From contig NZ_FNOH01000013.1 of NCBI RefSeq assembly GCF_900106535.1, positions 124,001-188,000 of the forward strand: a stretch of 64,000 bases of DNA. Direction: 5' to 3'. Of the stretch, positions 6,940-8,790 are shown one piece after another. The notes under the pieces are model-generated. The model saw only the letters and a program-made list of their open reading frames with translations, made no database searches and was not told the origin of the DNA. Source of the stretch: Myxococcus xanthus. GTDB lineage: Bacteria; Myxococcota; Myxococcia; Myxococcales; Myxococcaceae. How positions within the stretch are numbered: position 1 is the stretch's first letter; every line of letters starts with the position of its first letter. A program made the translations under genes and the position numbers.

Positions 6940-6970
6940 TGACGTGTCAGTGCCTGGGGCTGACACGTCA
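6940..6970 (+). promoter_or_regulatory. paired TGACGYGTCA boxes, unit 1 (candidate enhancer sites)
   Basis: TGACGTGTCA at 6940-6949 and TGACACGTCA at 6961-6970. Each is a TGAC-N2-GTCA dyad, and the two are reverse complements of each other. Centre-to-centre spacing is 21 bp, two helical turns. They lie 61 bp upstream of the GG of the sigma54 promoter at 7030, a suitable place for an NtrC-type activator. The same arrangement recurs at 7816-7846. Confidence 0.6.
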
Positions 6971-7029: not shown

Positions 7030-7045
7030 TGGCACGAGTGTTGCC
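7030..7045 (+). promoter_or_regulatory. sigma54 (-24/-12) promoter, unit 1
   Basis: TGGCACG-AGTG-TTGCC at 7030-7045 gives GG-N10-GC and matches the sigma54 consensus TGGCACG-N4-TTGC nearly perfectly. Expected transcription start is near 7056, about 90 bp before the start codon at 7145. Confidence 0.8.
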
Positions 7046-7144: not shown

Positions 7145-7486
7145 ATGAAAGCAACCCTCTTGCTCGTTGTATTCGTCGCCTTCTCTGCCGCTGCTCAAAG
7201 CAAGACGGCGAACGTCACCCCCAAACGCTGCGGAGGATCCTCTGGTAAGACGTGTGTCCAGGGGGAGGTATGTGCTGGAGAAAAGACATTCAAAGACGGT
7301 CTCGGTGTCTGCGTCATGGGTGCATTTTCAAATCAATGCGCCAACGCCTTGGGCAGCCGCTGCCCGAATAGCACGGACTACTGCATTGAAGACCCGCGTA
7401 ACGCCGATTGCCCGCCTGGGGTTATGGATTGCGGTAATGGGCTTTGTATTCAGAAGAAGATAGTTGACCAGATTGGGGTGAAATGA
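7145..7486 (+). CDS. small secreted cysteine-rich protein (cassette unit 1)
   Basis: The 113-residue product has a Sec signal peptide (MKATLLLVVFVAFSAAAQ). The mature domain of about 95 residues contains 10 cysteines (RCGG, KTCVQGEVC, GVCV, QCAN, SRCP, YCIED, DCPPG, DCGN, LCIQ), so probably five disulfides outside the cytoplasm. I chose the ATG at 7145 over the upstream in-frame TTG at 7109 because GAGGAA at 7131-7136 is a good ribosome site 8 bp away and the signal peptide then starts correctly. It is transcribed from a near-consensus sigma54 promoter. No family is recognised. Cys-rich secreted proteins can be enzyme inhibitors, toxins or surface proteins, but nothing here decides between these. 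GC content is clearly lower than in the core genes, consistent with acquisition. Confidence 0.7.
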   Translation: MKATLLLVVFVAFSAAAQSKTANVTPKRCGGSSGKTCVQGEVCAGEKTFKDGLGVCVMGAFSNQCANALGSRCPNSTDYCIEDPRNADCPPGVMDCGNGLCIQKKIVDQIGVK

Positions 7487-7625: not shown

Positions 7626-7790
7626 TCAGCCGAAATTTAGCTTCTGCGGCGTGCCTTCTGTCTCTTCGATGAACCGGGCGAAGTTGCGGGCCTTCTGGAA
7701 GGCTCCGACTGGTTCATCGGTGTGCTGGTACAGCTCGACCACCACTTCGTCGGCGAGCGGCCCCTGACGGTGACACCGGCCGATGCATCG
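7626..7790 (-). pseudogene. phage-type helicase 3' end, copy A
   Basis: Minus-strand reading gives CIGRCHRQGPLADEVVVELY, then HTDEPVGAFQKARNFARFIE and ETEGTPQKLNFG followed by TGA at 7628-7626. IGRCHRQG is helicase motif VI. It is nearly the same as the tail of copy B (8344-8790), with a few substitutions. Everything upstream of motif VI is lost at about 7790, so this is the last 55 or so codons of a helicase-like gene of the SNF2/DEAD type found in phages. Confidence 0.65.
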
Positions 7791-7815: not shown

Positions 7816-7846
7816 TGACGTGTCAGTTTCTGCGGCTGACGTGTCA
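7816..7846 (+). promoter_or_regulatory. paired TGACGTGTCA boxes, unit 2 (candidate enhancer sites)
   Basis: TGACGTGTCA at 7816-7825 and again at 7837-7846, centre-to-centre 21 bp exactly as in unit 1. The second box ends 63 bp before the GG of the candidate sigma54 element at 7908. Here the two boxes are direct repeats, whereas in unit 1 they are reverse complements; the TGAC-N2-GTCA dyad is unchanged by this. Confidence 0.6.
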
Positions 7847-7907: not shown

Positions 7908-7924
7908 CGGCATGATCTTCGCTT
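7908..7924 (+). promoter_or_regulatory. sigma54-like promoter, unit 2 (weaker match)
   Basis: CGGCATG-ATCT-TCGCTT at 7908-7924 keeps GG-N10-GC but has C for T before GG and T and C substitutions in the flanking consensus bases. Its position relative to the paired boxes matches unit 1 within 2 bp, which supports it. Confidence 0.5.
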
Positions 7925-7956: not shown

Positions 7957-8283
7957 ATGAAAATGCATGTCGTAGTAGGTGCAGTGTTCTCGATTCTCTT
8001 TTTCTCGGCAGATGCCAAGGCTGAAGATCAAGCGGACGCTGAGTGGACGAAGCACGCCAACAATGCTTGTACCAAGGCGGCGGGGGGAAAGACCGCCACG
8101 GTTGTTCCTGATTGGTCGGTGATAAATGTTGAGAAGTGTGGTGGGGTTGAATGCAAGGCGTCTGATGGTCGCAAGTTTCAGGTGAATCTGCCTAATGGAG
8201 CCCCTTGTATCAAGTACATGATTGTCACTCCGCCCCCTCGACCAGTGAGAGGGACGTGCAGCAATAGTCAATGTAGAACGTAG
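7957..8283 (+). CDS. small secreted cysteine-containing protein (cassette unit 2)
   Basis: The 108-residue product has a Sec signal peptide (MKMHVVVGAVFSILFFSADAKA). The mature protein has six cysteines (NACTK, EKCGGVECK, APCIK, GTCSN, QCRT) and a Pro-rich segment (TPPPRP) near the end. AGGAG at 7945-7949 lies 7 bp upstream of the ATG. It shares regulatory layout, size class and position next to a helicase remnant with the gene at 7145, but the proteins are not obviously alike beyond a CGG motif. No family is recognised. GC content is low for the window. Confidence 0.7.
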   Translation: MKMHVVVGAVFSILFFSADAKAEDQADAEWTKHANNACTKAAGGKTATVVPDWSVINVEKCGGVECKASDGRKFQVNLPNGAPCIKYMIVTPPPRPVRGTCSNSQCRT

Positions 8284-8343
8284 GCGGTAAATTGGGGGCA
8301 CGTTGGCGCTAGCGCTCTGGTGTTTTACACAGTCGTGGGTCGC

Positions 8344-8790
8344 GAAGTTCTGCTTCTGCGGCGTGCCCTCTGTCTGTTCGATGAACCGGGCGAAGTCGCG
8401 GGCCTTCTGGAAGGCCCCGACAAGCTCGTCGGTGTGCTGGTACAGCTCGACCTCAACTTCATCGGCGAGCTGCCCCTGACGGTGGCGCCGGCCGATAGCC
8501 TGTTCCCACGCAACGCCATCGGCCGGTGGATTCACGAACAGCATCCGCGAGAACATCGTCAGATTCTTCCCCGTACCGCGAGCACGAAGCGAAGCGACGA
8601 TGGACCGCTTCCCACTCTCCCGGATGATGGTCGCCGACGCTTCCGGGCCGCCGCCATGGAAGGGCACGCCCGCCGCCTTTGCGATACGCTGGCCAAGTTC
8701 CGGGAACTCAACCCATGCGATTCCCGGCGCAACATGGTTGACGCTGGTGTAGTCGGGTCGAACCTCGAGGAGTTCGCGCGCCTTCTTCTC
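8344..8790 (-). pseudogene. phage-type helicase 3' end, copy B (longer)
   Basis: Minus-strand reading runs from ARELLEVRPDYTSVNHVAPG through IIRESGKRSIVASLRARGTG, KNLTMFSRMLFVNPPADG, EQAIGRRHRQGQLADEVEVE to EGTPQKQNFA. GKNLTMFSRMLFVNPP resembles motif V and QAIGRRHRQGQ is motif VI of SF2 helicases. The N-terminal two-thirds of the enzyme is missing: at about 8790 the frame meets the start of an oppositely oriented membrane-protein gene. The stop codon seen in copy A is also lost. It is a larger duplicate of the fragment at 7626-7790. Confidence 0.65.

Follow-up and report, generated by a model that had tools for sequence, protein, structure and literature searches.

Promoters recognised by sigma-54 require an AAA+ enhancer-binding protein (EBP), and to our knowledge few of the dozens of EBPs of Myxococcus have a known binding site. 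The NorR enhancer consists of several GTCA-N3-TGAC sites located upstream of a sigma-54 promoter. The element described here, the paired TGACRYGTCA box, was found in a stretch of 64,000 nucleotides from Myxococcus xanthus (G000:C13:124001-188000, contig NZ_FNOH01000013.1; called the window below), which belongs to a genome of 9.26 Mb in 91 contigs. Like the NorR sites, the boxes are composed of short GTCA/TGAC half-sites present in several copies and probably read by an EBP; however, the order of the half-sites in TGAC-N2-GTCA is reversed.

Two EBPs of M. xanthus provide a further comparison. Nla28 binds 8-bp direct-repeat half-sites, CT(C/G)CG(C/G)AG (PMC9765219, PMC7910581), and both papers describe EBP sites that stand in tandem ahead of sigma-54 promoters, as in the arrangement proposed here. 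However, the Nla28 half-sites are direct repeats with a consensus unlike TGACRYGTCA. The earlier note on the window, prepared from the sequence alone, had reported that the boxes do not match the Nla28 motif, and the consensus printed in PMC9765219 bears this out. The sites of NmpR are GCGCA-N5-TGCGC with a preferred spacing of 14-15 bp, and the inter-site spacing matters (PMC11841059). They resemble the boxes in being pairs of palindromes that lie upstream of sigma-54 promoters, and NmpR is an NtrC-like EBP, but their sequence does not match TGACRYGTCA. The literature searches, with few subscription papers within reach, revealed no description of the TGACRYGTCA motif, including the available parts of PMC9765219, PMC7910581, PMC11841059 and PMC2875238. 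Queries with the exact motif listed papers that appear unrelated, among them PMC12442346, which concerns BetI sites in Alphaproteobacteria. Within the literature reached, a sigma-54 enhancer motif with a probable regulator is a real and undescribed finding.

Based on the sequence comparisons below, we consider it likely that the paired boxes are the enhancer (upstream activating sequence) of a sigma-54 regulon in the family of Myxococcus, Corallococcus and their relatives, with the orthologue group of the gene C9:162918-164600 as its EBP. In the window, pair 1 is formed by exact boxes at 6940-6949 (TGACGTGTCA) and 6961-6970 (TGACACGTCA), and pair 2 by exact boxes at 7816-7825 and 7837-7846 (both TGACGTGTCA). 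The start-to-start distance is 21 bp in each pair, and the exact matches confirmed the earlier description of paired TGAC-N2-GTCA boxes at this distance in both units. The two units are copies of a 43-nt direct repeat with 81% identity. A loose single-box pattern with one mismatch was not enriched in the window (13 matches vs. 21.4 expected); the excess concerns exact boxes and pairs, not loose single boxes.

In the whole genome, 11 places matched the pair pattern when up to two mismatches were allowed and none matched its reversed-pattern control, while the single exact TGACRYGTCA occurred at 51 places vs. three for the control. Exact 21-bp pairs were present in 49 of the 145 genomes of the order, all of them from one family and eight genera, and the control matched nothing in any row. 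The spacing between boxes was tallied in the M. xanthus genome for 50 of the 51 exact boxes, and neighbours were counted once per exact box. Other boxes, with no more than one mismatch, were recorded 35 times within 60 bp vs. four times at control positions: 12 at 21 bp, nine at 31-32 bp, two each at 11, 20, 22, 34 and 42 bp, and one each at 19, 41, 54 and 59 bp. The helical phasing between boxes is real. The earlier note had described a spacing of exactly two helical turns in both units; genome-wide, 21 bp is indeed the commonest distance, but several other spacings occur and it is no fixed rule.

The linkage of the boxes to promoters was analysed with a score for the -24/-12 element, whose weights were set by hand after the flanks from the M. 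xanthus genome had been inspected and before the loci from other genera were fetched. The underlying consensus agrees with TGGCACG-N4-TTGC(T/A) as printed in PMC9765219, and the cut-off was 17 of 20.2. The loci from other genera were the 72 pairs printed by the order-wide scan, with genera g1 and g20 left out. An element with a score of at least 17 was present within 200 bp of 60 of the 72 pairs. As the control windows were one-sided and the loci were scanned on two sides, the count is also given by sides: 64/144 sides vs. 8/285 control windows at a score of at least 17, and 52/144 vs. 0/285 at a score of at least 18. A stricter promoter pattern, written after this scoring and applied to both sides alike, was found at 26 of 59 dereplicated loci (13 of the 72 had been dropped beforehand as redundant) and at seven of 349 control places. 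In the M. xanthus genome, the element with a score of at least 17 accompanied 15 of the 19 box clusters vs. five of the 20 single boxes, and three of these five singles (L011, L013 and L053) had scores of at least 18.7 at distances of 49-93 bp. Long open reading frames (ORFs; at least 120 aa, G + C content at third codon positions, GC3, of at least 0.8) contained 14 of the 20 single boxes vs. three of the 19 clusters. A pair with two mismatches in L012 had no element at the cut-off.

Both pairs in the window are followed by such an element on the forward strand. The element TGGCACGAGTGTTGCC at 7030-7045, located 59 bp after pair 1, is an exact TGGCAC-N5-TTGC with a score of 19.5 of 20.2, while CGGCATGATCTTCGCT at 7908-7923, 61 bp after pair 2, has a weaker -12 part and a score of 17.4. 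In other genera, the distances between box and promoter clustered near 50, 60, 73 and 82 bp (46 dereplicated promoters of 60, after 14 of the 60 promoter-bearing loci had been removed as redundant ahead of the phasing test). For the 42 dereplicated promoters at 30-130 bp, the best period was 10.6 bp with a vector length of 0.57, a value reached by none of 5000 jittered sets. Because the distances are periodic at about 10.5 bp, the nearest box lies on a preferred face of the helix relative to the promoter. The distances of the clusters in the M. xanthus genome, mostly 48, 59-63, 70-73 and 82-85 bp, and those of single boxes at 49, 62 and 93 bp fit this phasing; L006 at 145 bp and L052 at 97 bp lie off the series. 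The genome-wide scan suggested in the earlier note finds the 21-bp pairs above chance and linked to promoters, and its reading of the boxes as an activator site is supported by their excess over the control and their helically phased position upstream of sigma-54-type promoters. The class of activator, on which that reading was silent, is probably sigma-54/EBP.

Two EBP genes adjoin boxes among the stretches fetched from the M. xanthus genome, C9:162918-164600 and C9:149632-151842. The first encodes a protein of 561 aa on a contig other than that of the window, and a box lies 7 bp past its stop codon. Two small genes come next, and both have boxes and an element of the sigma-54 type. Of 50 EBP-family loci, 39 had one or more boxes (one mismatch at most) in the 90 bp that follow the gene, compared with 33 of 1609 equally long control windows; 34 of these loci had at least two, and most of the 34 retain the 21 + 11 or 31-33 bp spacing. 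The 50 loci are a selection of the matches: 30 returned by the family search, 19 hand-picked from its printed list and the paralogue L199 from the M. xanthus genome; a twentieth hand-picked locus, L218, was dropped as a repeat of L095. Relatives of C9:162918-164600 (E <= 1e-60) were present in 67 of the 96 genomes of the family, including all 49 with exact pairs, while none of the 29 genomes without a relative carried an exact pair (rows matched by hand). As evidence for this protein as the putative binder, the position of the gene is stronger than the co-occurrence.

The nearest named relatives of the candidate EBP belong to Myxococcus sp. CA023 (98%) and to M. xanthus AM003 and M. vastator AM301 (both 97%). 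A protein sharing 90% identity with the Myxococcus EBP is encoded at locus L240, whose record bears the title Comamonas sp. KCTC 72670 and is probably mislabelled or contaminated.

The AAA+ domain of the candidate was assigned to Sigma54_activat (PF00158, E 9.5e-58). An alignment of 13 rows showed the motifs GAYTGA or GAFTGA and GETGTGKE (GETGVGKE in one row), which we take to be the GAFTGA-type loop and Walker A, respectively. The first C-terminal helix-turn-helix (HTH) is of the Fis type (HTH_8, 27 bits, cut-off 22) in the C-terminal 97 residues of the M. xanthus AM003 orthologue; HTH_8 was not listed for the whole EBP of the genome studied here at E <= 0.001. The second C-terminal unit matched no HTH family at its cut-off. 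In a 13-sequence AlphaFold model of low overall quality (mean 44.9), this unit forms three helices with a predicted local distance difference test (pLDDT) value of about 72-84, and a paralogue of the candidate shows two HTH_8 stretches; less surely than the first, a second HTH may thus be predicted in tandem. Residues 45-175 in the N-terminal part gave no Pfam match at E <= 10 and form strands in the same weak model. Their resemblance to an FHA domain was noticed by eye only and was not confirmed by Pfam. On the NorR model, the AM003 orthologue scored 234.6 vs. a cut-off of 476.

Several results weigh against the assignment of the boxes to a sigma-54 enhancer read by this EBP. At the level of promoters, 12 of the 72 pair loci from other genera had no element at the cut-off and four carry one on both sides, four clusters in the M. 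xanthus genome (two in L007 and one each in L010 and L011) did not reach a score of 17, and the element of cluster L052, which is counted among the 15 but is one of the three lying in coding-like ORFs, is doubtful. At the level of the regulator, 11 of the 50 EBP-family loci had no box within 90 bp and are scattered over the tree (seven label changes), and L226 and L235, counted among the 39, have one mismatched box at 71-77 bp, which may be a chance match. Moreover, 18 of the 67 genomes with a relative of the EBP have no exact 21-bp pair, and no EBP was present in the stretches of 3.7 kb or shorter around the 72 pair loci. The co-occurrence of EBP and boxes tracks phylogeny, would suit other family-specific genes as well and is weak evidence. 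Also, the homologue in the M. xanthus genome of a terpene cyclase that is a putative target elsewhere has no boxes, though they would be expected.

The other explanations differ mainly in the protein that would bind the boxes. The boxes could be a sigma-54 enhancer bound by another EBP, such as the paralogue C1:1033953-1035515, which is 59% identical to the candidate and has a similar second HTH, or by another of the EBP-like genes, given that the genome contains 38 matches to the candidate at E <= 1e-45. We regard this as unlikely. The 4.6-kb stretch surrounding the paralogue (L199) contains no TGAC-N2-GTCA box, whereas boxes follow the gene in the 39 loci of the C9:162918-164600 type and its relatives. 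Moreover, in genomes G107, G108 and G116, the orthologue is the only match at E <= 1e-60 (14 candidates were scored per genome), yet they carry four, three and one pairs, respectively.

The second box-adjoining EBP gene, C9:149632-151842, encodes an AcoR-like protein with Sigma54_activat and HTH_8 domains, and its ORF begins beside, and diverges from, a triple box in L032. Its matches (E <= 1e-100) are confined to 27 of the 96 genomes of the family, all from genus g1, while the pairs occur in eight genera. In many g1 genomes, the orthologues of this ORF (L032:630-2843) have stops within the matched stretch or are split into two matches, as if decaying. As a general binder the AcoR-like EBP is ruled out by its one-genus distribution, and we consider the whole proposal very improbable. 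Equally improbable is a regulator other than an EBP, a repressor or modulator occupying the boxes upstream of sigma-54 promoters while the EBP acts elsewhere: short palindromes would fit many HTH proteins, but the boxes are placed in phase upstream of the sigma-54 elements and lie behind an EBP gene. The idea that the boxes represent a dispersed repeat, or a chance likeness, with no regulatory role can practically be dismissed, for although the units in the window belong to the 43-nt repeat and adjoin a multi-copy repeat of 154 nt, the spacers vary from locus to locus, the boxes and the promoter phasing persist, the genes behind the boxes come from different families, and both the promoter linkage, found with two patterns, and the promoter phasing contradict it.

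The sigma-54 enhancer read by the C9:162918-164600 orthologue group would have the following targets. In the window, the putative target of pair 1 is a small Cys-rich protein of 113 aa (ORF 7145-7486, forward strand) and that of pair 2 is a protein of 108 aa (ORF 7957-8283, forward strand). Both have an N-terminus that resembles a signal peptide by eye, and neither matched a Pfam family. The second unit is flanked by a 154-nt direct repeat (7631-7784 and 8343-8496, 89% identity). This repeat also occurs at C2:132872 in the same genome, and 11 of 26 further genomes from the genus carry copies. Between 9700 and 12350, the window contains a gene for a DUF2381 protein followed directly by a Ser/Thr protein kinase gene.

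Elsewhere in the M. xanthus genome, the ORFs behind the boxes encode a trypsin-like protease, a ferritin-like, a class-3-lipase-like and a choloylglycine-hydrolase-family protein, an ATP:guanido phosphotransferase, an OmpA/TSP3 protein, a protein with Ig-like domains and a flavoprotein nearest to the LodB/GoxB maturases, although below their cut-offs. The near-identical trypsin-like loci L031 and L035 share one box array and are located at contig ends (C5 and C25); they are one locus or two, and may be recent copies or reflect an assembly break. The putative targets in other genera include trypsin-like proteases, an MscS-type channel, a P450, a LodA-domain protein, a phosphoesterase, and a terpene synthase that comes closest to an encapsulin-cargo model without reaching its cut-off. 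Two of these ORFs, for the LodA-domain protein and the terpene synthase, are truncated where the stretch ends. One ORF was chosen per promoter by length and GC3, and a few of those chosen (e.g., L136 and L196) are doubtful, short ORFs. Upstream of three homologous terpene cyclases (L133, L189 and L195) there are box pairs accompanied by sigma-54 elements; among the three, the cyclase of L189 is the one nearest to the encapsulin-cargo model. In a comparison with 60 ORFs from other genera, eight of the 14 target proteins of the M. xanthus genome had homologues behind pairs: L006, L008, L011, L029, L032, L034, L053 and the window protein 7145-7486, whose homologue (L149) is 88% identical and lies behind a 21-bp pair in another genus. 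The protein 7957-8283 had no homologue among these 60 ORFs. From these families we infer a role of the regulon in secreted enzymes and secondary metabolism; a common role of the targets in attack, predation or competition is a guess.

In the mechanism that we propose, an AAA+ EBP, most likely of the C9:162918-164600 orthologue group, would bind at least two boxes along one face of the helix, and the bound protein, mostly 50-95 bp upstream on the preferred face, would remodel the sigma-54 polymerase at the -24/-12 element. This would switch on the two small, probably secreted proteins 7145-7486 and 7957-8283 of the window. We infer from gene position and sequence that the candidate is both the binder and the activator, and binding at the boxes may be cooperative, by a dimer. 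The putative regulon is of the established EBP regulon kind. A more tentative proposal, which we put forward as possible and at less than even odds, is that secreted enzymes and secondary metabolism have a sigma-54 regulon of their own, which the large-genome Myxococcaceae have retained while its targets change by lineage. Its EBP, with two HTH units per protomer, would read arrays of boxes phased both mutually and with the promoter, and the enhancer would be defined by a double helical ruler instead of one fixed distance.

The motif, the promoter rule and one named candidate regulator would together make the regulon predictable across the genomes of the family. Moreover, the double helical phasing may serve as a natural experiment in the architecture of sigma-54 enhancers that act at close range.
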